A DNA stretch of 64,000 nucleotides from assembly GCA_015143295.1 (NCBI GenBank), contig CM026573.1, positions 8,337,934-8,401,933 on the forward strand, given 5' to 3'. This DNA comes from Tetracentron sinense (lineage: Eukaryota > Streptophyta > Magnoliopsida > Trochodendrales > Trochodendraceae). This document shows positions 27,410 to 58,298 of the stretch, in pieces. Made by a program: the position numbers and the translations under genes. The notes beneath the pieces were generated by a model. It was given only the letters and a program-made list of their open reading frames with translations, had not been told where the DNA came from and made no database searches. Numbering within the stretch: the first letter of the stretch is position 1; each line of letters begins with the position of its first letter.

Positions 27410-29309
27410 AACCTGCAAAATGTTTCTCTTCGATACGCATTGGACTGTCCGGTGTGAATGGGTTATCTTTGATCTTGTCCAACAATTCTTCTACATGCTT
27501 AATAGTTCCTTTCACACGTTCTAACACCATGTCCACTTCATACCTGGAATCATGAAATAGTGAATAACATCACCAATTGCCAAGAGGCCAAGACAAAGAA
27601 CTCATGCAGAATCACAGTTATCAAGTTCTGTTACAGATCAAAATACTGGAAAGTATTTCAAGCAATCAATTTGCCTTTAGAAGAATAAGATAGAAAGAAA
27701 TCACTGAGTAGTATTATCAGATGAAAGACTCTTTTACATGGTTAAAATTGCACAACCATCAAACTCATTTTCCCCAATTTTCTTATTGCTAGCTATACAT
27801 GGATATGAAAGAACCATGGAACTAAATAGTACTGAAAAAAAGGGCCATGTAGTACTCATATCACACAAATTAGCAAGGAGATAGAAAAAAATATAAATGC
27901 TGAAAATCTCGAAAAAGTATTCTACCTTGCATCTTCCAATTCATCCATGTATTCTTCATACTGGTCTTTGCACATGTGTTTCCTTTCTGACGTCACAAAT
28001 CCCTGATTATCATCCAATACTAAAGCACCAAGCTCTATTCTCTGCTTATCCTTTTTGGGGCGCTTCCTATGCTCATGGTCCACTTTCATAAATGCTTTTC
28101 CATGGTCAGGATCAAGTACATCGACATGTGAAGTAATAGTTCTCCCCCTCTGCAGGCAACATTACATATAAGATTCGGTCTATGGGTACTCCCAAACAGG
28201 GGCGGAGCTAGGAATTTTTCATTGGGGGGGGGGCAAAATACATGTGTAAAAAACTAATTGAACTGAGGGTATGGGGCATTGCTCCCAAGAAAAAAAATTT
28301 GGGGGGCCACAAGTATACTAAAAAAATTTCAGGGACCCACTATTTCAAACCACAACAAGGAGGATTTACAAAAAACTTGGGGGGCCATGGCCCCCCTCGC
28401 CCCAGCTCCCAAATATACTCCCTAATCCTAACCGTTTAAAACTAACCACTAACCGTTTATATAAACAGGTGGTCAGCTTGCTGATCAATAAAAGTTCACA
28501 AGAAACTCTCGAAAGAAATAAAACAGGGAAAATAAAAACCTTGGCAGAAGAATTCCTTCCACATGGGACATGCTGCCATGGGTCTGTTGAAGATGGATCG
28601 GGTAGAAAATGCAGGAACTCCTCAAACAAGTCCGGATGGTCACAGAAAAGAGCAGAAACCTTCAAAGAGAAGAACGAAATTAAGCTCAGAGAAACAATAA
28701 ACAAAGTGGCTTGACAAAAAAACATTAATGGATGCAAATATACCTGTTGGCCGACTTCAGCGATGGGGGTGTTCTCCTTTCCACACTTACACAAGATTAA
28801 TAAGAAAGATTTATAAACATGATCATCACCTTGAAACGTCTGGATGCAAAAACCCATTAATTAGAAACACTAGAAAGCAAAATTGGTTCCTCAAAAATCA
28901 ACAATGTGTTAGAATTATCACCTCCTTAACCTTTTTGAAAAACTCCACAGATTCAACATCAAAGGATTTCATCGATGGGGGTTGAGGAATGGTGATCTCA
29001 TATCCATAGGGCAAGAAGACATTGAAGCCTGAAATAAGCTCCCCATGTCCTCCCAATAAAACCTCCACCTTAGCTATGAAATCTGCATACTTGATTCTGC
29101 AGGCAACATAACATGTATCAGTAAAGCAACAAAACCCTACAAACGTTAACAAAAAAAAAAAAAAACAAAGTGAAGTGAAGATCAAACATTTTTGCATTGA
29201 AATATGTGACGAGTTGAAGAAACTGCTTGTAATTCTCCGTTTTATCCCGAAATCTGCACTTCATGTTCTTTAGATAGGCACACGAATCACGAAGAGTTTG
29301 TTTCTCCAT
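27137..29309 (-). CDS. Compact SIN3-like protein (PAH1-PAH2-partial HID)
   Basis: SIN3 proteins are scaffolds of histone-deacetylase co-repressors: PAH domains bind transcription factors and the HID binds the deacetylase. Exons on minus are 29309-29188, 29096-28922, 28839-28744, 28659-28540, 28149-27926, 27543-27413 and 27306-27137, all GT-AG. Phases join to 1038 nt, 345 residues, without an internal stop. PAH1 spans about residues 5-80 (YLKNMKCRFRDKTENYKQFL ... ISGFNVFLPYGYEI). PAH2 is about 90-152 (FQGDDHVYKSFL ... FEEFLHFLPD). Then comes a piece of the HID (KDQYEEYMDELEDARYEVDM ... CIEQIYGDYGLDV ... LTRLQQKQVEW), ending in a stop shortly after. Full plant SIN3-like proteins are about 1300 residues with a third PAH and a longer HID; both are absent. 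Either a functional short paralogue or a decayed one with intact frame. Confidence 0.75.
27355..27406. repeat. (TA)n(GA)n microsatellite in SIN3-like intron 6
   Basis: About 8 ta units then about 17 ga units inside an intron of only 106 bases (27307-27412), adjacent to the donor side on minus. Likely length-polymorphic. Confidence 0.85.
28197..28405. mobile_element. hAT-type non-autonomous element in SIN3-like intron 4
   Basis: The ends caggggcggag / ctcgccccag are inverted repeats with one mismatch. The flanks are an exact 8-bp duplication, ctcccaaa (28189-28196 and 28406-28413), the hAT signature. The same caggggcggagctag-type end occurs at 33634 and 39217. Confidence 0.8.
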
Positions 29310-29870: not shown

Positions 29871-30399
29871 GTCAGTAACAAATAATATTTAAAAGGTTAG
29901 AATATAAAATAGTTATATGCGAGTAAAAGTTGAAGACATTACTTTGATGAATTTCAAGTTGATGATAGATGCAAATTCAATCATAATAAAAAACAATTGA
30001 GAAAAAAATAATTCCAATTTTTTTTCCTGCAAGTATATATACACATAAAGAGCGAAATCCGCAAGAAGCAAGCTTCCCTTTGTATTTGCTCAACAAATTT
30101 CCTATTGATTAAATTTTGAGCTAAACGTAGCTTATTCTTTCTAAATAGGCGAACTTGCTTACATTTAGTAAACCTTTCAAACATCAAACAAAGCTCCAAA
30201 TTTACATTGATGTTACCTAGCGCTACTTTTTCATGAACCTTCATTCTGCAATATATTATTTCAAATTACGTTAGAGGACTTTAAAGTTCTTAAATAATTT
30301 AAACTAAGTCAATAATTATTTATTTATTATATCCAGGTTAAAAATGTTTCTTATTTTATTTATAGTTTATTTATTTCCTGTGGTTAATAAGTGGTCTAG

Positions 30400-31620
30400 T
30401 AAGAGCATCAATTAAATTGATTAACAATGTTTAACGGTGGTTAACAATGCTTAATTATGGTTAAGATTCACTAACCCTAAGGGTTAAAGCAATTAACAAT
30501 ATTTTAAAAGGAAAAACTTATAATTAACAATGGTTAAAATTCACAAACCCTTTGGGTTTACTATTTTATCTATGGTTAAGATTAACTAATCCCTAGGATT
30601 AAAGAGTTTAACCCTTAGAGTTTTAGAAGAAGGTTAGACTCACCATTGAAGGGAACCTGTTAAATCTATTAACTATGGTTAAGTTTTATTAACCCTTAGG
30701 TCTTAAAAAATTAACAATATTTTAAAAGGACATCAATTAATAGTGGGGTTAAGGAGTTTAACCTTAGAGTTTTAGAAGAATGCGAGACTCACCATTGATT
30801 AACAAAACCGGTTAACTATGTTAACTGTGGTTAAGATTCACTAACCCTGTTTTTTAAAGAAATAAAGAATATTTTAAAAGGAAAAATTTAATTAACAGTG
30901 GTTAAAATTCACAAACCATTTGGGTTAACTATGAGTTTAACCCTTAGAGTTTTAGAAGAAGGCTAGACTCACCATTGAAGGGAACCTGTTAAATCTATTA
31001 ACTATGGTTAAGTTTCATTAACCCTTAGGTCTTAAAAAATTTACAATATTGTAAAAGGACATCAATTAATTAGATTAATAGTGGAGTTAAGGAGTTAAAC
31101 CTTAAGGTTTTAGAAGAAGGCTACACTCACCATTGATTAACAAAATCAGTTAACTCTGTTAACTTTGGTTAAGATTCACTAACCCTTGTTGCTAAGCAAT
31201 AAACAATATTTTAAAAGGAAAAATTTAATTAATAGTGGTTAAAATTCACAAACCTTTCAGGTTAACTATTTTAGCTATGGTTAAGATTATCTAATCCATT
31301 GGGTTAAAGATATTAACCCTTTAGAAGAAGGCTAGACTCACAATTGAAAGGAACTAGTTAACTCTATTAACTATGGTTAAGATTCACTAACCCTTAGGGT
31401 TAAAGAAATTAACAAAATTTTAAAAGGACATCAATTAATTTGATTAACAATTAAAATTCAAAAACCCTTTGGGTTAACTATAGTTAAGATTAACTAATCT
31501 TTAGGGTTAAAGAGTTTAACCCTTTAGAGTTTTAGAAGAAGGCTAGACTCACCACCGAAGGAAACCGGTTAACAATCTTAACTACAGTTAAAATTTAATA
31601 ACCCTTAGGACTAAAGAAAA
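30400..31620. repeat. Tandem array, ~325-bp period, of gttaagattcactaaccc words
   Basis: A long unit is seen at about 30626 and again at about 30951, with a third diverged unit from about 31321. Each has agaaggctagactcaccatt, ggttaactatggttaagatt and ttttaaaaggacatcaatta in the same order. Each also contains shorter internal repeats of ctatggttaagattcactaa. The subrepeat words equal the arms of the foldback MITEs elsewhere in the window. The array seems to have grown by amplification of MITE termini. Confidence 0.75.
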
Positions 31621-32745
31621 TAACATACGTATAGGAAACATTTTTTTTTTGTTCAATCGTCTTCTCCATGAGGGTTTTGCGGGAAGGAGATGATAGCAAT
31701 GTGTTCCAGAAATTAAAATGCACCAAGCTAAAATTTAGAAAGAGAAAGATTAGAGTAGTACATCCTGGAAATTGCAACTTAACTGGGTTTTTCAAATTAA
31801 AAACTAACAATAGATGAGTTCAATCCCGGAAAAAAGAAAAACAAAACGAACAACAGAGACAGTCGAGGAATCGTAGATAGGTTTGAGAGATGATTTTGAG
31901 ATCGAGATTTCTGATTGAGAAACTCAGCTTTTGGAGAAGATCGATTGTCAGGATTTTGAATTAGGGATTTCTCTTTATTTTGTTTGTGTTCTTTGTTGAA
32001 TTGAATTGCAGGTATCGAATTTGGAATTAAGAACCTTTAATGAAGATTGGTAAAATTTCAGATATTAAAAATAATTGAAACTACTAACATGAATGAAATT
32101 TCAGATTAATAGAAAAAATTTCAGATGTTAAAAATAAAGGAAACTAACCTGATTTGATCAACCTAGAACCTTGATTCAGATAAATTTACAAATATGTCCT
32201 GCAAAAGATGAAGAATGAATGAGAATGATGAAAAATCAATCTCAAATATCCCAAAGAATGTAGATTGGAAGAGATAGAGCGAGAGGTGATAAAACAGAGA
32301 CAATACTCTGGGAAGAGTTTTTGAGTTTGGATGAGAGTCATATTTCTTTCTTTATATACTTTGACAAATTTAGTGAGTACGGAAAACAGAGTTGTAATGT
32401 GAGAAGAAGAGTTCGGGAACTGTTCACAAAGCCCGGGATTTCAACAATTTGATAATTTTATAAGGGAAAATAATACCTACTCGGTTGGTGACGCGAGGAG
32501 GGGCGTCTTGGCTCCCATTTTCTTGCCATGTGTCTCTGTTCTAACCCCATTTAACTGTGGTTAAGATTCATCCACCCTTAGGGTTCACCCATCTACCCTT
32601 GGTTTTTAGAAAAATAAAATAAAATATTTTTAATTAAAGGGTTAAAAAACCTAACCTGAGTTAATAAGAGTTGAAGGGTCGACAATGTGAGAGTGAGTAC
32701 GGGGAACTATTTCTCTTTCCGATCCAATCACAGCCAAACGTGAAT

Positions 32746-33012
32746 GAACTCGGGGAGAGTTCAATCACACCCACTAATCAACACGTCTCTTTTAACCTCT
32801 ATTAATTGTGGTTATAATCGACTAACCCTTGTGTTCAATAATATAACCTAGAAATTAGAAAAAATATTTAAAAAATATGAACTCAAAGGGTTAAAAATTC
32901 TTAAATCATATAAATTTTCAAAAAACAAAGATAAGCTTATTGAATCTTAACCACATTTACAAGGGGTTAAACGGAACACGTGTTATTATGCGGATGTGAT
33001 TGAACTTTCCCT
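32746..33012. mobile_element. Foldback MITE, gttaagattcac family, in block A
   Basis: Left arm gagagttcaatcacaccc ... tctcttttaacctctattaa ... gtggttataatcgacta; right arm ttgaatcttaaccacattta ... ggggttaaacggaacacgtg ... atgtgattgaactttccc. The arms are complementary over more than 80 bases. Its counterpart in block B lies at about 38722-39014. Confidence 0.65.
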
Positions 33013-33054
33013 AAGTGAACTCACATTGACTATAATAAGATCTTTTAAAAGAGA

Positions 33055-33310
33055 TTAGCAGGTGACACGTGCGATGCACGTGAGAGCGAGGGGGAGAAGT
33101 TAACCACAGTTAATAAGAGTTAAAAGGGGCACGTGTTAACCCGTAGGTGCGATTGAACTCAATGTAATTCTATTATTTACGAAGAAGAAGATAGATGAGC
33201 AAGGATAGTTTGGGTATTAAAGTAAAGTATAAAATCAAGGTTTTGTTTTACATAAGGGTAGGTTGGGAAAAATCAGGCTACGCCTGCCTCTACCATTATA
33301 ATAGTAAAGA
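33055..33310 (-). mobile_element. 256-bp non-autonomous Helitron with proven insertion site
   Basis: On minus it starts tctttactattataatgg and ends with the perfect hairpin cacgtgc-atc-gcacgtg followed by gtcacctg and the terminal ctaa. On plus it sits between gaga and tatatgaaaa. Block B has the uninterrupted equivalent gagatatgtgaaaa at 39045-39058. The ends, A/T target and empty site therefore all agree. It carries no ORF, so it was moved by proteins from elsewhere. Confidence 0.9.
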
Positions 33311-33633
33311 TATATGAAAATTACTGTTTTAATTAGTATTATTTATTAATGTAAGACGTTTTGAGGAGCTCTAGGGTGAAGCTTACATGGGCTCCATGTG
33401 TATAAGTTCGCATGTTGTGTGTGTGTGTTTGCGTGGGTGGTCTGAGTATTCCCTTGTATTTGCCTTCATTGCGTTATGATTGAGTTTACCAAAAAAAAAT
33501 AAAAATTGTAAGACTCGGGATCTTATCCGGTTAGTATTGGCGAGGAGATCACCAACACTACTTTGAAGGTGTCACTACCTACCTTCTATACACGCCTACC
33601 AAGCATGTGTGCGTGTCTTGGTTAGTGTGCAAG

Positions 33634-34456
33634 CAAGGGCGGAACTAGAATGTTTTTTTGCAACAGTGAGGACTCAGGGGCATAGCCCCTGAATAAATTT
33701 TTTTTTTAGCGCCAAGTTCATAGGTCATAACCTCTATTTGTATCCGTTTATAAAGAATTTTTTATTTATTTTAAGTGTTTAGGGGGAGCTAGAGCCCCCG
33801 TCCTCCCCGGCTCCCCCCTCTCCCAGGCTTAGGGGTGGTTATTGAACAAAATGTTCATAAAATATTCGGTACTCGGCTCGTTAAAAGCTTGAGCTCATTC
33901 GTTTATTTAGTAAACGAGTCGAGCTCGAACACCATTTTCAAGCTCGTTTAATAAATGAGCCGAGCTTGAACACACCCCTACTCGGCTCGTTAAAAGCTCG
34001 GTTCGATTATGTGTATATATATAAACTTAATCATATATATATATATACTTAATCCATTTTGTTGGGTTGTGGGACATTTGTTTAGTTCCACATCAAGAAG
34101 AAACAAAGGTAAGATGCATTTGTCGGCCTTTAAAAAGATAAAGACCAGTGGAAGTAAAAAAAGACAATCTTAAGCTAAGCTAACACGCTATGTGTTCGAG
34201 CCAAACTTGATATGAGCTCGAGCCTCGAATGAATTCTATTCCAACTCAAGCTCGTTTTTGTTCGAACAGTAATACTTATGTTTGAACCGAACTCAAACAA
34301 TAGTAAAATTTAGCGAACCGAGCTTGAACACCTCACTACTTGACTTGATATCACCCCTACCTAGGCTACACCCCAATGAACACTATACAATTTTTATTTT
34401 TCAAAATTTCAGGGGGGCTTCAGCCTCCCCCCAGGCCTCATGTGGCTCTGCCCTTG
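33634..34456. mobile_element. hAT-type non-autonomous element, block A copy (823 bp)
   Basis: The ends caagggcggaactag / ctctgcccttg are inverted repeats. Flanks tgtgcaag (33626-33633) and tgtgcaaa (34457-34464) form an 8-bp target duplication. It carries a nested element. The same insertion is present in block B, so it predates the block duplication. Confidence 0.8.
33831..34358. mobile_element. agctcg-rich MITE nested in the hAT element, block A
   Basis: Ends aggggtggttattgaac / gatatcacccct are roughly inverted. The interior is rich in gctcgttaaaagctcg and gagccgagcttgaac. Flanks ccaggctt / cctaggct suggest a short target duplication. Relatives occur at 16119, 46440 and 60205. Confidence 0.6.
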
Positions 34457-34559
34457 TGTGCAAAGGGTTGTGTGGAGCCTTCAGAGTGGGTGCTGACGGT
34501 CTCCTCACCAGCACAACCTGAAGAAACCCAAGTCTTAATGTAATAATAGATTAGAAAAT

Positions 34560-36165
34560 GAAAAACAAACCGTGTGGTCAGCTTCCTAGTTGACTACGCG
34601 ATCTCATTAGTCCACCCTTTCTTTTTTAACACCTACTAAATGTGGTTATAATTCACTCACCCTAGGGTTCATTCATCTAACCTTTGATTTAAATTTTTTT
34701 TATTATAATTAAGCTTAACCATAATTTTTTTTTTTCAAAAAAAAAAGGTTAAAAGAGACACGAGGAGGAAGGACATTTTGCGGACCCTTCTCAGGGTTCT
34801 AATAGAAGTCCATATAAAATTATAAATGTAAGGGAGTTGAGAAACATTCTCATAGAGTCCGATCCTGTCCAATTGTGATTGAACTCACAAAGCCAGAAAG
34901 TCCCTTTTATTTTCCTTTTAGGGTCCTTGGCACTTGACACTTCCAGATGGTAGTTAGAAGGAAATTTGAGTCACTTTGTAACAAGTTACCATGGTGAGAT
35001 TTAAGTCTTTATCGTTTTTGGTGAGAGTTGAAATCATTCTTTTGCATTTAAAGTTTTTGCTGCATTTAAAGTCTTAGGAATTCTTGCAACGAAAAGTCGT
35101 ATTATATTTTGACAAAAAAGTAACATACATCTGGTTTTAAAAAGAAAAGTCATATTATCTATTGACAAAACTTGATAAGTACTTGGGATTTTATAACTCT
35201 CCACAAAAGAACGAGACCTTAACTCTAATTAAGAAGTTTTAATTCCTTATAATTAATATTTTTTTCCCCAAAAATTAAGGTTAAAATATATAACCCTAAG
35301 AGTTAGTAAATCTTAATCATTGTTAATAGGGTTAAAAGAAACTTGTATTAATTTTTAACTCTCCACAAAAGAACGAGACCTTGACTCTAATTAAGAAGTT
35401 TTAATTCCTTAGAATTAACATTTTTTCCCTAAAAATTAAGGTTAAAATATATAACCCTAAGAGTTAGTGGATCTTAATCATTGTTAATAGGGTTAAAAGA
35501 AACTTGTATTAATCTTATAGATGCAAGAGTTCAATCACGAATCAAATATTGACATGTGGGTAAATGATTTAGTTCACATGCAAGTTAGTTGACATGCAAT
35601 TTTAGATACACAGCTTTTCAGGCAATAAAATTTCGGGAAATAAAATTTCGATCATTCTTGAATGACACGAGATCCTCTCCACTTGATGCTGGCAAGAAGA
35701 TGTTAGGATTCACTCTGAAGGAGCCCAAGTTGGTGCTGGCAAGGAGATGCCAGCATCCACTCTGAAGGAGCCACATCTGCACTTCGTCATCCCATTATTA
35801 GTTTAGAGCCCGTTTTGACATCACTCCCAAAGAACATTTCTCTATTTCTTGGAAATAAAAACCTCCGCATTTCATCATCCACAATATTAGTTTACGTGCA
35901 CAATTACTTGGTAACCGTGTGATATTGATCGTTGGCACATTTAGACAACCGGAGTCTTCTAGAATTAGGTCATCCCTCTTTAAGGATTATCATATAATCT
36001 AGCTAACTTGGAACCTACCACATGTAGCTCAGATGGCATGGTTTGCCTCTATCACGAGGTTGACCTGAGGTGGTCGAGCCCTTAGGAAAATATCCCTAGG
36101 AAGCAGATTCTTTCATTGAAATGGACAACAATATCACTCTCCATAACTAACCTAACAACTATGCC
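34560..36165. other. Block A right part: internal repeats, SINE-like head
   Basis: No gene. A ~175-bp unit is repeated in tandem: ctccacaaaagaacgagacc at 35200 and again at 35367, each followed by ttaattccttataattaa and taaccctaagagttag. At 36023-36081 tagctcagatggcatgg and ggtcgagccc resemble pol III A and B boxes of a tRNA-derived SINE. The equivalent in block B is near 41665. Confidence 0.55.
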
Positions 36166-36419
36166 TTGTCCAAGAGTGGAGCCACATAAGTCCCAAGGGA
36201 CTTCAACTTCCCTGAGTGGAGCCACATAGGTCCCAAGGGACTTCAACTCCCCTGAACATAAATATAAAAAAATTAAAAACTATAGTATTAATAGGGGCCA
36301 TGGGGCACAGATGCCCCCATGAACTTGGCCATAAAAAAATAATGGGGCTACGCCACCAAATCCCCTAGGCTCCATTTTTAGCCCTTATAAGAAAAGGCTC
36401 CGCCCTCGCCCCGGCCTTG

Positions 36420-36889
36420 TGTCACAACCCACTAACTCAAACATTTCATCAAGCACCAAGAAGGTATATCTAGTATGAAAGATTTGTATTAATACAGTAG
36501 AAGTATAAGAATACATGTATAGATACTATAAAAGACTAGTATATATATTGTATAGGAAAACCCTAGAAGAAGGAGAGTGTGTAGAAACTATCTAGAAAAG
36601 TCCTCAAGAGGAGGAGGATGAGGAGAATTCTAGAACTAGGGGGATTCTAGATGTCTAGAACCCTCCCATAAAGCCTATAAAAGGGAAGGACCCTTTCAAT
36701 TGTGGGGCATCCAAGAGTTGTAAGCATTCTTGAGTAATAAGAAGAGTGAGTAAAAGCTTCTTGAGTTCTCTTGTTCCTTAGTGATCTTGTTTCTTGAGAG
36801 TGTTAAGAGGAAGACTTATGCGGTCTTGAAGGGTCAAGTTATCGAGTGCCTCACGGTCGTTATCGAGAGGAAGGATTAAGGCCGTGACA
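36420..36889 (+). mobile_element. 5' LTR of a Ty3/gypsy-type retrotransposon (470 bp)
   Basis: It begins tgtcac and ends gtgaca, the standard inverted LTR termini. A TATA box tataaaag at 36676-36683 lies about 210 bases before the end, suitable for LTR transcription. The primer binding site follows after one base. No 3' LTR exists in the window. Confidence 0.85.
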
Positions 36890-36891
36890 GT

Positions 36892-36904
36892 TGGTATCAA
36901 AGCC
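36892..36904 (+). other. Primer binding site for initiator tRNA-Met
   Basis: tggtatcaaagcc differs from the plant consensus tggtatcagagcc by one base and sits right after the LTR, fixing the LTR boundary and the transcription direction. Confidence 0.85.
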
Positions 36905-36931
36905 AGGTTACAAGGGGACGTGACTAGCGCA

Positions 36932-37534
36932 ATGGACAAGAATACGAGCTTGGAGATTGCGGAGGAACAAGTCATGATCGAGGGTGGCCATCAAGATGTT
37001 CCCATCGCCTCAAACCCTAGGAGAGGGAAGTCCAAAGATTCTCGTGCCAGGATGGAAGCAAGGCTTCAAAGGTTGGAGCGTGGCCTTGTTGAGGATCAAG
37101 ATCAGTGGGTGGAGATTGAAGGAAAGCTTGATGGACTCAAAGGAGAAATGCTGGGGACCCTTAATGAGGTCCTTTACTCCCAACAACAAGAGAAGGATGC
37201 CTTGAAAGCCAAGTTGATGGGGTTGATAACTTCGTTGCAAAATCAAATGGAGGAGATACGAGGGGAATTCGCTGTTTGGAAAAAGGCCATGACGAGTGGA
37301 GGAATGGTCACGAGAGAAGTGTACAAGGTGAAGACTCCCGAGCCTAAGACCTTCAATGGTATAAGGAATGCTAGAGAGCTTGATAACTTCCTATGGCAAA
37401 TGGAGCGGTACTTCGAGGCTATCTCCTTAAAGGATGAGAAAACCAAGGTACGCACCGCTACTCTTTACCTTACTGATACTGCTACCTTGTGGTGGAGAAG
37501 AAGGCTAGACTCACCACTAAAGGAAACCGGTTAA
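36932..37534 (+). pseudogene. Truncated retrotransposon gag
   Basis: The likely start is ATG 36932; an in-frame upstream ATG at 36884 lies within the LTR end and PBS. About 188 native codons follow. The first part is charged, with a coiled coil (residues about 40-110). Then comes the retrotransposon gag domain start: PKTFNGIRNARELDNFLWQM, then YLTDTATLWWRRR. At 37496, exactly inside the tryptophan-arginine motif, gag is cut and block B begins. The remaining codons to the stop at 37532 are read from block B DNA. Nucleocapsid, protease, reverse transcriptase, integrase and the 3' LTR are all missing. The WWRR motif with a tRNA-Met primer fits plant Ty3/gypsy elements. Dead. Confidence 0.85.
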
Positions 37535-40500
37535 CAATCTTAACTACGGTTAAAATTTAATAACCCTTGGGACTAAAGAAAATAACATACGTATTGGAAA
37601 CATTTTTTTTTTGTTCATCGTCTTCTCCATGAGGGTTTTGCTGGAAGGAGATGATAGCAATGTGTTCCAGAAATTAAAATGCACCAAGCTAAAATTTAGA
37701 AAGAGAAAGATTAGAGTAGTACATCCTGGAAATTGCAACTTAACTGGGTTTTTCAAATTAAAAACTAACAATAGATGAGTTCAATCCCGGAAAAAAGAAA
37801 AAAAAAACGAACAACAGAGACAGTCGAGGAATCGTAGATAGGTTTGAGAGATGATTTTGAGATCGAGATTTCCGATTGAGAAACTCGGCTCTTGGAGGAG
37901 ATCGATTGTCAGGATTTTGAATTAGGGGTTTCTCTTTATTTTGTTTGTGTTCTTTGTTGAATTGAATTGCAGGTATAGAATTTGGACTTAAGAACCTTTA
38001 ATGAAGATTGGTGAAATTTCAGATCTCAAAAATAATTGAAACTACTAACATGAATGAAATTTCAGATTAATAGAAAAAATTTCAGATGTTAAAAATAAAG
38101 GAAACTAACCTGATTTGATCAACCTAGAACCTTGATTCAGATAAATTTACAAATATGTCCTGCAAAAGATGAAGAATGAATGAGAATGATGAAAAATCAA
38201 TCTCAAATATCCCAAAGAATGTAGATTGGAAGAGATAGAGCGAGAGGTGATAAAACAGAGACAAACTCTGGAAAGAGTTTTTGAGTTTGGATGAGAGTCA
38301 TATTTCTTTCTTTATATACTTTGACAAATTTAGCGAGTACGGAAAACAGAGTTGTAATGTGAGAAGAAGAGTTCGGGATCTGTTCACAAAGCCCGGGATT
38401 TCAACAATTTGATAATTTTATAAGGGAAAATAATCACCTACTCGGTCGGTGACGCGAGGAGGGGAGTCTTCAGTCTCGGCTCTGGTTTTCTCGCCATGTG
38501 TCTCCGTTCTAACCCCATTTAATTGTTATTAAGATTCATCTACCCTTAGGCTTCACCCATCTACCCTTGGGTTTTAGAAAAATAAAATAAAATATTTTTA
38601 ACTAAAGGGTTAAAAAACCTAACCTGAGTTAATAAGAGTTGAAGGGTCGACAATGTGAGAGCGAGTACGGGGAACTATTTCTCTTTCCGATCCAATCACA
38701 GCCAAACGTGAATGAACTCGGGGAGAGTTCAATCACACCCACAGGTCATCACCTGTCTCTTTTAACCTCTATTAACTGTGGACCTCTATTAACTATGGTT
38801 ATAATCGATTAACCCTTGTTTTCAACAATATAACCTAGAAATTAGAAAAAGTATTTAAAAAATATGAAATCAAAGGGTTAAAAATTCTTAAATCATATAA
38901 ATTTTCAAAAAACTAAGATAAGATTACTGAATCTTAACCACATTTAATAGAGGTTTAATAGAGGTTAAAGGGACACGTGTTATCATGCGGATGTGATTGA
39001 ACTTTCCCTAAGTGAACTTTGACTATAATAAGATCTCTTTTAAAAGAGATATGTGAAAATTATTGTTTTAATTAGTATTATTCCTTCATGTAAGACTCGG
39101 GATCTTCTCCGGTTAGTTTTGGCGAGGAGATCGCCCACACTACTCTGAAGGTGTCACCAACCTACCTTCTATTCACTCCTACCAAGCATGTGTACGTGTC
39201 GTGGTTAGTGCGCAAGCAAGGGCGGAACTAGAATTTTTTTGCAGGGGCTAAGGCTAACAGTGGGGGTTCAGGGGCATAGCCCCCCAATTTTTTTTTAGTG
39301 CCAAGGTCATAGGTCATAACCTTTGTTTGTATTCGTTTATAAAGAAAAAAATTGATTTCAAGGGTTTAGGGGGAGCTAGATCCCCCGGCTCCCCACTCTC
39401 CCAGGCTTAGGGGTGGTTATTGAACAAAATGTTAGTGAACTACTCGGTACTCGACTCGTTAAAAGCTCGAGCTCATTCGCTTATTTAGTAAACAAGTCGA
39501 GCTGGAACACCATTTTCGAGCTCGTTTAGTAAACGAGCCGAGCTTGAACACACCCCTATTCGGCTCGTTAAAAGCTCAGTTCGATTATATGTATATATAT
39601 AAACTTTATCATATATATATATACTTAATCCGTTTTGTTGGGTTGTGGCAAATTTGCACATGAGCTGATCCCAATTGCTAACGAGTTAGCAAGTGAAATA
39701 GATAAGTGCATGAACTGATCCTAATTGCTAACAAGTGAAACAGATAAGTTGGGACACTTGTTTAGTTCCACATCGGGAAGAAACAAAGATAAGATGCATT
39801 TGTTGGCCTATAAAAAAGTAAAGACCAGTGGAAGTAAAAAAGGCAATGCTAAGCTAACACGCTATGTGTTCGAGCCGAACTTGATATGAGCTCGAGCCTC
39901 GAAGGAAATCTATTCCAACCCGAGCTCGTTTTTTTTCGAATAGTAGTACTTATGTTTGAACCGAACTCGAACAATAGTAAAATTTCGCAAATCGAGCTTG
40001 AACACCCTACTACTTGACTCGATATCACCCCTACCTAGGCTACACCCCAATGGACACTATACGATTTTATTTTTCAAAATTTCAGGGGGGCTTCAGCCTC
40101 CCCCCGGGCCCATGTGGCTCTGCCCTATGTGCAAGGGGTTGTGTGGAGCCTTCAGAGTGGGTGTTGATGGTCTCCTCACCAGCACAACCTGAGAAACCCA
40201 AGTCTTAATGTAATAATAGATGGGAAAATGAAAAGCAAACCGTGTGGTCAGCTTCCTAGTTGACTACCGATCTCATTGGTCCACCCCTTCTTTTTTAACA
40301 CCTACTAAATCTAGTTATAAGTCACTCACCCTAGGGTTCATTCATCCAACCTTTGATTTTAAATTTTTTTATTATAATTAATAGTATAATTAAGCTTAAC
40401 CATAATTTAAAAAAAAAGGTTAAAAGGGACACGAGGAGGAAGGACACTTTGCGGACCCTTCTCAGGGGTTCTAATTGAAGTCCATATAAAATTATAAATG

Positions 40501-42038
40501 TAAGGGAGTTGAGACACATTCTCATAAAAGTCCGATCCTGTCCAATTGTGATTGAACTCACAAAGCCAGAAAGTCCATTTAATTGTCCTTTTAGGGTCCT
40601 TGGCACTTGACAATTCGTGATGTAGTTAGAAGGAAATTTGAGTCGCTTTGTAACAAGTTACCATGGTGAGATTTAAGTCTTTATCGTTTTGTTTTTGTGA
40701 GAGTTGAAATCATTCTTTTGCTGTATTTAAAGTCTTAGGAGAAATGCAACGAAAAGTGGTATTATATTTTGACAAAAAAGTAACATACATCTAATTTTCA
40801 AAAGAAAAGTCATATTATCTTTTGACAAAACTTATAAAGTACTGGATTTTATAACTCTCCACAAAAGAACGAGACCTTAACTCTAATTAAAAAGTTTTAA
40901 TTCCTTAGAAATAATATTTTTTTCCCTAAAAATTAAGGTTAAAATAAATAACTATAAGAGTTAGTAAATCTTAATCATTGTTAATAGGGTTAAAAGAAAC
41001 TTGTATTAATTTTTAACTCTCCACAAAAGAAGGAGACCTTAACTCTAATTAAGAAGTTTTAATTCCTTAGAATTAATATTTTTTCCCTAAAAATTAAGGT
41101 TAAAATATATAACCCTAAGAGTTAGTAAATCTTAATCATTGTTACTAGGGTTAAAAGAAACTTGTATAAATCTTATAGGTGTGAGAGTTCAATCACGAAT
41201 CGAATATTGTCATGTGGGTAAATGATTTAGTCCACATGCAAGTTAGTGGACATGCGATTTTAGATACACAGCTTTTCAGGCAATAAAATTTCGATCGTTC
41301 TTGAATGACACGAGATCCTCTCCGGTTGGTGCTGGCAAGAAGATGTCAGCATCGACTCTGAAGGAGCTCAAGTTGGTGCTGGCAAGGAGATGACAGCATC
41401 CACTCTGAATGAGCCACATCTGCACTTCTGTCATCTCAATATTAGTTTAGGGCCCGTTTGATATCACTCCTAAAAAAACATTTCTCTATTCCTTCATCCA
41501 CAATATTTTGAAAATAAAAACCTCCGCATTTCATCATCCACAATATTAGTTTTACGTGCACAATTACTTGGTAACCGTCTGATATGGATCGGAGAAGATC
41601 CCAAGTCTTCTAGAATTAGGTCATCCCTCTTTAAGGATTATCATATAATCTAGCTAACTTGGAACCTACAACATGTAGCTCAGATGGAATGGTTTGCCTC
41701 TATCACGAGGTTGACCTGGGGTGATCGAGCCCTTAGGAAAATATCCCTAAGAAGCAGATTCTTTCATTGAAATGGACAACAAGATCACTCTCCATAACTA
41801 ACCTAACTACCATGCCTTGTCCAGGAGTGGAGCCACATAGGTTTCAAGGAACTTCAGCTCATAAAAAAATTAAAAACTATAGTATTAATAGGGGCCGTGG
41901 GGCACAGATGCCCCCCCCCCCCCATGAACTTGGCCATAAAAAAATAATGGGGGTTACGCCACCAAATCCCCCAGGCTCCATTTTTAGCCCTTATAATAAT
42001 AGGCTCCGCCCTCGCCCTGGCCCTGGCCCTGGCCCTGT
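37496..42038. repeat. Large direct duplication, block B (~4.54 kb)
   Basis: Second copy of 31534-36419. It starts at the same agaagaaggctagactcacc word as A, fused directly to truncated gag. It lacks the Helitron but has a ~100-bp extra segment at about 39655-39760 with an internal repeat (gagctgatcccaattgctaac / gaactgatcctaattgctaac). It ends in a ccctgg microsatellite (42013-42036). No gene inside. Confidence 0.85.
39217..40127. mobile_element. hAT-type non-autonomous element, block B copy (911 bp)
   Basis: Counterpart of 33634-34456, with the left end caagggcggaactag and right flank tgtgcaag at 40128-40135 matching cgcaag on the left. It carries the same nested agctcg element (about 39409-40032) plus the ~100-bp extra segment. 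Its presence in both blocks orders the events. Confidence 0.8.
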
Positions 42039-42590
42039 ACTGATCACTCTCCATAACTAACCAAACTACCAAGCCTTGTATCAAAAACAAATAAATAGAT
42101 AAAGGTAAAGACACAGTAAGGATAATCAAAACCTCAACCATAAATGAGAGAAGCCCACGATACTTTTTCCTCAGATGGGGAGTCCCCTGTTAATTCATAT
42201 TGGAGCTCAATAAACGTGGAACTAAATTTCCTGCACGAGTGAAACTCAAGCATTATACTTCATTCAAAAAGAAGCCCAACTTATCAAATTGAAACAAAAT
42301 TTCAAAACTAAAAATTAACAAAGTATTTTATCCACCAGAAAATAAGGAGTGAATGGCAGATAATGAGCATGCCCAAGCAGCAAGCTAGAATTATTTTTAC
42401 TGCCAAGAACAACCAAAATAAATAGACAGCAGTAACACTAATACAATAACAGACAAAATAGTCGGTTAAAAAAACAGAGCAATTGCACTATGGTCCTTTC
42501 CCCCCCTGCTCTCATTGATTCCCACCATATTGAGATGGAAACCTTTCTTCCTCTACACCATCCACCCTCTTTTTACCCCTCTTGTTTCAT
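42039..42590 (-). other. 3' flank of VDAC
   Basis: No gene. It includes the segment 42236-42400 that is repeated at 25986-26140. It also has a second copy (42044-42081) of the 38-bp sequence atcactctccataactaacc...gccttgt that occurs at 41785-41821, so these two flank the gc-rich segment between them. Confidence 0.5.
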
Positions 42591-45500
42591 CTAGGGTTTG
42601 AGAGCTAAGGCCAGCCCAACCTTTGCGCTCTTCTCGATGGCCCTTGTGTCCACCTCTCCAGAGATGGTGAAGAGGGACTTTGGCCGCCACTCGTGCTGAA
42701 TGAGGGCACTTGCCTTCCCGTAGTTGTTCACCCGAGCCTTCACCGTGGTCAAGGGATCCAACGATTGCTGCGTGCCAATTGTGAGGGTATTCTCATTGCT
42801 TGAAAAGCTATGGCTCAGCTCTGCCCCAACAGCTGTGTTGGTCAGGAGGCCCACTGTGTGGTAGTAGGATGCATTCAGGGTGTCACCCTTATCATTCCTG
42901 CATTCATCAATAAGCATCACCTCATCAACCAGGGAAACACCACAACACAATCCAAGAGTAATCAAGCAGAATTTCATACTTCGGCTTGATTAGCAGTTGA
43001 AAAGACCAGATTAATTTCCTGGATTTTCTAAATATCTATCCAAAATTTAATCCAGGTTAGGTTTTTATATTTTACCAAGACTGGAGCAAGGGATACTATA
43101 AATAAATAAAAAAAAAAAAAACAAGGGATGAAGGACAGCAAGAAGCTTCTCTCCTTGTCCTTTCCATATACCTACTAGAATCCATTAAAAACTAGTCTTC
43201 AAACTAGTAAATTTAATCAAATTAATATGCTAACCCATTGATTTCCCAGGCGGGTCACAATATCTTTGAACTATAGATAAATAAGTTCATAAATAAAGTT
43301 TTTTTTGTGGAGGGTGAAGGTAATAGGATGGTTGCAATCACATAATCAAATCTGCCTTCAAGCCTAGAAAAAAAGAGTATCTTGCACATGAACCTTTGTG
43401 TGTGCAGGAAGAAAGGGCAGTTCCTTATCCCCTTTCCTATCTACCTTAAACAAGTTCTGCTCTGAAAATTTCCAAAAAAATAAGCAGAACTGAAGTAGAG
43501 TGAAAAATTCCATTTTGTAAAGGGAAATACTCACAAGGTCAAGGAAGCAATGAGGTCGGCATTGGAGAAGCTCAACCCTGCATTGCATTTGGTGAAGTTC
43601 CCAGTTGCAGTGTCAAAGCAGACGTCAGTGCCAAGGGAAACAACATTGCTTCCTACCACACCAGAGAAGTTAACAATGGGGTTTGCTGTCAACCCAATGC
43701 TTGTGCTTATCCCAGCATAGTCATGTAAGTACTGGAGTTCCACCTGTTACAACAATCATCAATAAATCAAGATGAACAACCACAAATGTCAGTTTCTGAT
43801 GCAAATGTGATGTGTCAAGCAATGGAGCAACTATATCCACATGGGAGTAATGGATCACATGCTGCCCCTACTCATCTGGGGAGCCAAAGCATGGAATTGA
43901 ATTCAAACATAGAAATGAAAAATTTAAATGAGAGGAAAAAGAGAGAAATTGTATACCTTGCCAGACCTTTGATCAGGAACTATAAAGCTAAAGATTGTCT
44001 TAAGTCCAGGCGCAGGTTCGTCAACAGTAATAGTCGTAAAAAGCTGACAAAATCATATAAGATTATAAGCCAAATGATCAAAGCATAACAAAAATTGCAC
44101 ATCGATTTCCACATATGTTACCGATGGTCTTGCATATCACATCATTATGAAGAAATGAAAATCAATGATAGAATCGAATTCATATTCTCTTCTACCATTT
44201 AAGGAAATAAATATCACTCATTTACGACCATAATGAAACTTCCCTATAAATACATATCAAGAGTTCAAGACAGATACAGGTGCAAAAACAATGAGGAACG
44301 AATAAGTACTTCTACCAAAGGATACTGCAACAATCCCGTTTTCAATGCTAGTTTTACTGCAACTCTTGTGGTCTAATTATCTACACAATTGCATGCATTA
44401 GCATTAACAGAAACTCTGCTTTAAGGTTATCTGACTGGTGAAACTAACCCAAATATTTAGTGTTACTCAATCAGTTGAGTTTTTGGTGTGGGTTGGTCCT
44501 AATAATACAGGCATATTGGGTAATTTTGTTCCTCCAATCCATCCTATCACATTTTTTTTATCAGTAAATATGGAATTTAATAAGAAGGAAGGAAAGAACT
44601 TAAAAAGAGGTTCACCAATTAGTGAACACAAACCACACATACAAAGTAAAACCGGGTGGCATATGATGTTGATACCCAAACAACCATACCTACTCCAAAT
44701 CAAGAAGAGGCAACATCTCCAGCTCCTCAAAAAAAAAAAGTTGTTCCTAATTTGACACCAAGATAGAATGAAAATGAAGATTTGCTTTACAATAAATTCC
44801 CAGAGATGTACGCCTCTAGCAGGATCCACCCTGAGATGAATCCATACTGACACTAACTTCAACGCATCAACAATGACCAAATCTTTTGAGATAAATATAC
44901 TCAGTTGAGTGATAATTACAAACTGAAATTTGGAGGATCATAATAATTCAGGTTGCAGTTGCCAAAACATCTTTAAATCCATTATTCTAACCAACCCATT
45001 GTTCTTTATCCAAGCTACATATGGTCCATATGTGAGGTGAAGCTAAAGACTCGGTACCAGACAACTTACTTTCATTCTGAGATATCTACCTATATCCAAA
45101 AGTCCATATGACATAATTCACAAAGAGAGATGATATGAATATGAAAGAACGAAAAGACAACAAATAAGAAATATAGAAAAGAGGTCTGTTTAGAAAAAGC
45201 ATACATTAGAGTTCGTGTTCACTTTTACATCAGTTGTGATGTTCTTGTTCTTCAGCTGGGTATTCACATCAGCCAAAAACAGATCACCTTTCTTCGTTGC
45301 TGACGACGTAATAGCCTGCAGTGGAACAAAGTAACACATCAAGATGGAGATAGTAGGCAATACAGAATTGAGTTGAATAAAAATATATGGTAAAAAGAAA
45401 GTAAATGTCCCATTCAGTATCATGAAAAATAAATTCCATGATGTGCTTCATCTTGTGCTCTGCGGAACCACTCCAAATACATGCGAGAAGGAAGTAAATA

Positions 45501-57604: not shown

Positions 57605-57945
57605 AAACAAAGACTCGTAATCTTCTCCGGTTGTTACTGGTTTTGCCAAAACCGATTTCGCCCCAAGGTGGCCATGTGTCCATTTTACACTCTTTAACTG
57701 TGGTTAAGATTCACTAATCCTAAGGTTCACGGACCTATCTTTGGTTTTTAGAAAAAATATTTAAAAAAATTTTACCTTAGGAGTAAGTGAATTTTAACCA
57801 CGGTTATAATTTTATTTAAATTATTTTTTCTAAAAATCAAGATCAGGTGGGTGAACCCTAGGATTGAGTGAACTTTAACCACAGTTAAGAGGTGTCAAAA
57901 GGGACATGTGGCCACCTCAAATGGAGAAGATTAGGAGTCAAACAT
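57605..57945. mobile_element. Foldback MITE of the gttaagattcac family (~330 bp)
   Basis: Left arm gactcgtaatcttctcc ... aaggtggccatgtgtcc ... tttaactgtggttaagattc; the right arm is its complement, gaactttaaccacagttaag ... gggacatgtggccacct ... ggagaagattaggagtc. This is the best-preserved member and defines the family for the rest of the window. The ends abut A-rich flanks, so a target duplication could not be read with certainty. Confidence 0.75.
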
Positions 57946-57984
57946 AAATTAACATCAGTCATTGTTTTGAACCAAAACCAATTA

Positions 57985-58298
57985 GTAATGAAATCCTCTA
58001 CGGTTATAATTGGACTGAGGGAGTCTAGATACGCCCTTGAGGTCGCCACCTGTCCCTTTTGACATTTCTCTTAACTATAGTTAAGATTCACCCACCTTTA
58101 GAGTATATTCCCATATCCTTGGTTTTTAGAAAAAAATATTTTTTATAAAATTAATCCTAAGAGTTAATGAATTTTAATTAGGATTAACTTCTTTAAAATA
58201 TTTTCTCTAAAAACTAAAGATATTTGAGTAAATAGTAGGGGTGGGTACATCTTAAACATAATTAAGAGATGTCAAAAGAGACACAAGCAAGTTGCGCC
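57985..58298. mobile_element. Foldback MITE, same family, adjacent copy
   Basis: Arms ctgtcccttttgacatttct ... aactatagttaagattcacc and gggtgggtacatcttaaaca ... taagagatgtcaaaagagac are complementary. More diverged than the copy at 57605. Confidence 0.65.

Follow-up and report, generated by a model that had tools for sequence, protein, structure and literature searches.

Blocks A (31534..36419) and B (37496..42025) of a tandem duplication, both read on the plus strand, differ by a 256-base insert that lies in A, and the question raised by this locus is what the insert is and whether it arrived before or after the two blocks had separated. The window, the whole stretch of 64,000 nucleotides analyzed here (G000:C23:8337934-8401933), belongs to a genome of 1.161 Gb, in which those of contigs C1-C24 with a stated length measure 33-65 Mb. 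The extra bases occupy 33055-33310, exactly where the first-pass annotation had placed a Helitron with its empty site kept in the sister block; block B is uninterrupted there, with A at 39049 followed directly by T at 39050 (empty target site GAGA/TATG, 39046..39053, plus strand). Across the insert, block A reads AAAAGAGA/TTAGCAGG...TAGTAAAGA/TATATGAAAA, and in silico deletion of 33055-33310 leaves AAAAGAGA/TATATGAAAA, which differs from AAAAGAGATATGTGAAAA of block B by one mismatch in 18 bases, so that the claim of a restored site bar one base is borne out. Farther from this junction there are a 2-base indel to the left and additional substitutions to the right. The excision cut can be moved from -3 to +1 base with an identical outcome, AGA and T being common to both sides, and its position is fixed by the TC and CTAA termini together with the ends shared by the family.

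Read on the minus strand, the element starts with TCTTTACTATTATAATGG, finishes with ...CACGTGCATCGCACGTGTCACCTGCTAA and is placed between an A and a T, with no target duplication. The features that had been claimed for it, a 5' TC, a perfect 7-bp hairpin, CTAA and an A/T target, are all seen on that strand. The 5' terminus is TCTTTACTATTATAATG (33294..33310), and the last four bases, CTAA (33055..33058), conform to the CTRR pattern of Helitron 3' ends. The subterminal hairpin, CACGTGC-ATC-GCACGTG (33066..33082, minus strand), has its 7-bp stem 11 nt from the 3' end, where a Helitron carries a short hairpin about 10 to 12 nt from the end. Folded as single-stranded DNA it reaches -7.7 kcal/mol (z -3.3), a value equaled by 2 of 200 shuffles, and pairing holds up across 33 copies, with all seven Watson-Crick pairs in 12 copies, six in 15, five in 4 and four in 2. 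This hairpin is presumed to be the transposition terminator. A search of 30000-43000 against Rfam at the gathering threshold gave no match.

The ends recur throughout the genome. With at most two mismatches allowed, a 35-base pattern opening with the 5' terminus has 2,223 matches (1,051+1,172) and the 3' end pattern 5,553 (2,791+2,762), two counts that are not directly comparable, as the patterns are of unequal length; reversed-pattern controls gave 0 in both cases, which puts both patterns beyond chance. A genome search with the element itself in which 40 out of 4,421 candidates were scored gave 41 matches including the query; of these matches, 29 cover bases 1 or 2 to 256. The 39 other places retrieved yielded 32 full-length copies that reach both ends within 2 bases, and these finish with CTAG in 28 cases, CTAA in 3 and TTAG in 1; CTAA is thus a variant of the family's usual CTAG. 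Five groups of copies with matching flanks account for 12 of the 32 and lie in larger duplications or, for L011 and L027, within other copies. When copies with similar flanks are pooled, about 25 independent sites are left, with a TC start in 24, an end of CTAG in 23, CTAA in 1 and TTAG in 1, and flanks (20 bases on either side) that are 79% A+T. An A precedes and a T follows the element at 21 of these 25 sites (exceptions L013, L018, L031 and L047). Copies at unrelated sites stop at the same two ends rather than running past them, so that the first refuting condition set in the first-pass annotation, copies extending beyond these ends, did not refute it. The family is new, and its kind, the Helitron, is well known.

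A second internal empty site is given by L014, where one copy lies in opposite orientation at an A/T within the 5' end of another. When the flanks of the inner copy are joined, the outer one is restored and aligns with consensus bases 1-263 (87% identity) without a gap where they meet. Of the three apparently nested loci treated in this way, L014 is the only clean one: at L011 the match ends before the join, and at L027 it reaches only about 15 bases past it. The block B site and the nested L014 site both show insertion at an A/T with no duplication of the target, and an A/T surrounds the element at the 21 sites mentioned above. Recent mobility is indicated by L017 and L018, two further copies that occupy different sites and agree in all of 273 bp. 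We also observed head-to-tail arrays of a unit of about 80 to 100 bp from the Helitron 5' part at G000:C16:8207730-8208411 and C983:35888-36567; they resemble a satellite born from a Helitron, and, as the two arrays look alike, they may be one locus assembled twice.

These results support the identification of 33055-33310 as a miniature, non-autonomous Helitron with a matching empty site in block B. That the segment is instead a chance indel or another kind of repeat, such as a terminal-inverted-repeat element with a short target duplication, could draw on the 3-base junction ambiguity (AGA), which is readable as a short duplication, and on an interior that is partly related to foldback elements. 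Such a reading would leave the TC and CTRR ends, the hairpin, the A/T target and the fixed ends of a large family unaccounted for, and we regard it as extremely improbable.

When the Helitron arrived is less straightforward. Over 4,342 aligned sites, A and B show 282 differences (6.5%), with 1-3% divergence in 31534-32479 (against about 37496-38440) and 6-13% from 32480 on; the low-divergence part suggests either a segment under constraint (a gene) or a tract of conversion. Directly beside the insertion, divergence is 9.6% on the left and 11.8-12.8% on the right. Conversion as an account of unequal divergence on the two sides (55/1516 left versus 54/604 right, Fisher P=1.9e-6) was rejected, since that comparison is misleading when low divergence is confined to 31534-32479. 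For the same reason, an apparent strong conflict with the clock (4.6 changes expected, P=8e-6) was dropped: low divergence does not extend to the insertion, and the local expectation rises to 11.1. Measured against a consensus built from eight close relatives, the window copy shows 17 differences over 253 sites, of which 3 lie in CpG. A single lineage would be expected to have gained 11.1 changes after A and B split if divergence is taken from the flanks within 600 bases on either side (103/1,170 sites; P(>=17)=0.06), or 8.2 if it is taken from the whole block (P=0.005). The clock thus gives no confirmation of insertion after the split, with which it stands in mild tension.

Several observations bear on how this tension is to be read. 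The terminal branch of the window copy is 0.0775, its nearest fetched relative, L009, is 7.9% different, and a second search gave no closer full-length relative (40 candidates scored in each search); with only that many candidates scored, the parent copy may be unsampled. Ages judged by the distance to relatives may be too high in general, because another insertion, present in A only, is likewise remote from the closest relatives found for it (85-87% identity, gaps counted). This other insertion, 47 bp away at 33358-33506 and absent from B, is SINE-like: its tail is A-rich, and it is flanked by an 8-bp target duplication, TGTAAGAC (33350-33357 and 33507-33514). The retroposon was found at 39 other places among 40 candidates scored, some as head-to-tail multimers about 260 bp apart.

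A Helitron that predates the duplication and was lost cleanly from B, either by excision restoring the A/T or because an empty allele converted it, would fit a divergence somewhat above the A/B clock. Such a loss is conceivable in principle, because maize Helitrons are reported to excise in somatic tissue and leave the wild-type sequence behind (PMC10095026). That excision is a somatic one, and the same account, citing earlier work, describes TA-repeat footprints as well, whereas B carries no footprint. Clean loss demands one more event, and an exact one, and the unrelated A-only insertion 47 bp away fits a block A that has just been gaining insertions. We therefore consider this order of events unlikely. 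The element could also have been polymorphic at the time of the duplication, in which case unequal crossing-over would have brought together a haplotype with the insert (A) and one without it (B), and the insertion would be slightly earlier than the duplication. While this would account for an element of slightly greater age than the A/B split, two blocks that differ by 6.5% overall would require the polymorphism to be old, and we hold it to be very unlikely. A search for a third copy of the site gave none: among the matches listed, A and B alone align across the insertion point or right beside it.

The simplest inference, supported by the empty site, is insertion into A after A and B had separated, and we consider it quite probable that a non-autonomous Helitron was copied into the A/T of block A at that stage. 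The first-pass annotation held that the locus shows such a move; as the simplest inference this stands, but with no third site copy and the mild clock tension it is not demonstrated. Judging from known Helitrons, a RepHel protein acting in trans would nick a donor copy at its TC start, one donor strand would be displaced, the 3' hairpin with the CTRR end would bring copying to a stop, and the product would be joined between A and T with no target duplication. This explanation is supported by the exact empty site in B, the constant family ends, the many matches to both end patterns, the terminal hairpin, L014, the L017/L018 pair, the Helitron_like_N matches of this genome and the likeness of target, junctions and palindrome to those of Helraiser; against it stand the four of 25 sites that are not A/T, the 17 changes versus 11.1 expected, the 7.9% distance to the nearest fetched relative, the unclean joins of L011 and L027 and the failure to find a partner with like ends in the Rep loci read.

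With respect to an autonomous partner, the proposed search for elements with like ends succeeded in uncovering a large family, but gave no autonomous relative in the Rep loci read. The Helitron_like_N domain (PF14214) has 151 reported matches in this genome (150 of 298 candidates scored) and was found in 0 of 14 control genomes. Three of the Rep loci, L053, L054 and L055, are 99.4-99.8% identical over 3.5 kb and have open frames of 1,114 codons; the group is autonomous-looking, and by eye its 5' end appears different from that of the window family. Neither family end was found, with up to 8 mismatches, in 30 of the 151 Rep loci extended by 1.5 kb in both directions, nor, with up to 9 mismatches, in a further 3 kb upstream of L053 and L054 or of L050 and L062. 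A generic-motif match in L111 was rejected as loose and unlike the family end. By eye, the L053/L054 group may start with TCTTATTAATAAAAATTAATACGTGC near base 190 of L109, a locus in which many relatives begin matching at 213. On C1, a pair of family ends lies 14.4 kb apart, from 728103 to 742518.

Within the window, a 216-codon open frame at 36884-37534 resembles, by eye, a retrotransposon gag fragment, and a Pfam search of 36884-37531 gave no match; the minus-strand frames at 42591-42977 and 28366-28857 match the eukaryotic porin (PF01459) and paired amphipathic helix repeat (PF02671) families, respectively.

The interior of the Helitron has a history of its own. Element bases 151-211 (33100..33160, minus strand) are homologous to the arm of a foldback, MITE-like transposon, shortened by a deletion at its hairpin, and match several places in the window, including both arms of the repeat at 32757-33006 and its B counterpart. 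This older foldback repeat (32737..33027, inverted arms 32737-32786 and 32978-33027) is also present in B, and its arms carry the module found in the Helitron interior, at 32757-32814 (+) and 33006-32947 (-) in A and at 38725-38781 (+) and 39003-38955 (-) in B. More foldback repeats related to the Helitron-borne arm lie at 57660-58140. When the family consensus was compared with 28 loci found with block B's repeat (L080-L107, a set that excludes B and A themselves, L078 and L079, and 12 further matches of that search), the module was present in 28 of 28, with 73 matches, of which 39 begin at consensus 157 and 57 finish at 218. In matches starting at 157 the foldback arms extend outward by at least 40 bases, and other Helitron copies (L035, L044, L046, L047 and the outer one in L014) carry the arm further out, including a hairpin, GATTGAACTC/GAGTTCAATC. 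Since the arm extends further in these copies, position 157 marks the edge of a deletion in many others and not the border of capture. The foldback-derived part amounts to 61 of 256 nt in the window copy and 93 of 276 in L046, and a 69-nt mixed arm forms 12 stem pairs when folded (-14.6 kcal/mol, z -4.1). Most likely, a Helitron ancestor captured the arm of a foldback transposon; transfer in the reverse direction is less parsimonious.

The internal hairpin has been lost repeatedly. With L046 as reference, a deletion of at least 5 nt touches it in 30 of 40 Helitron copies, the window copy included, most of these copies having been selected for likeness to the window copy. Among deletion classes of at least 5 nt, 12 of 21 touch the hairpin, or 11 of 19 after two near-duplicate classes were merged by hand (rough binomial P=1.4e-5). 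A deletion specific to the Helitron was rejected, as the foldback arms have the same pattern: 7 of 11 deletion classes, in 7 of 56 arms, fall at the hairpin when arms shorter than 40 nt or near a locus edge are left out before counting. The palindrome is thus a deletion hotspot in both kinds of element, the foldback arms of L080-L107 losing it too. It is conceivable, if quite unlikely in our estimate, that the captured 12-bp hairpin would act as a false stop in rolling-circle copying, such that deleted derivatives like the window copy would transpose better; if true, this would account for a single place having been hit by at least 11 different deletions among the copies examined. A strong advantage of hairpin loss is disfavored, since 6 of 8 copies picked by the 5' end alone (of 100 listed) lack a hairpin deletion. 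Among the papers listed in a literature search, no title or abstract opening states the capture of a foldback or MITE arm by Helitrons or internal palindromes in them, which leaves unpublished status unproven.

Nearest among known systems are the non-autonomous Helitrons of plants (PMC2575219, PMC4683698) and Helraiser/Helibat1 (PMC4778049). The plant elements have TC...CTRR ends, a 3' hairpin and an A/T target, have no room for a transposase, reach high copy number and contain captured DNA. The window family is alike in these respects; it differs in that the window copy is only 256 bp long and its interior is partly a foldback arm, not a gene fragment. With Helraiser/Helibat1, the TC start, the CTAG end (here the family norm), insertion between A and T and a palindrome 11 nt from the 3' end are likewise shared, whereas Helraiser is autonomous, rebuilt from bat copies, and has a palindrome of 19 bp; the window copy is without a protein, has a palindrome of 17 nt and ends in CTAA.

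The current understanding of Helitrons is not overturned by these data. Taken together, a filled and an empty site paired in one genome and a copy nested within its own family provide clean in-genome evidence that members of a large Helitron family enter A/T sites and leave the target unduplicated. The foldback arm, with its hairpin lost in many ways, constitutes a small natural record of the capture of one transposon by another and of the decay of a palindrome.
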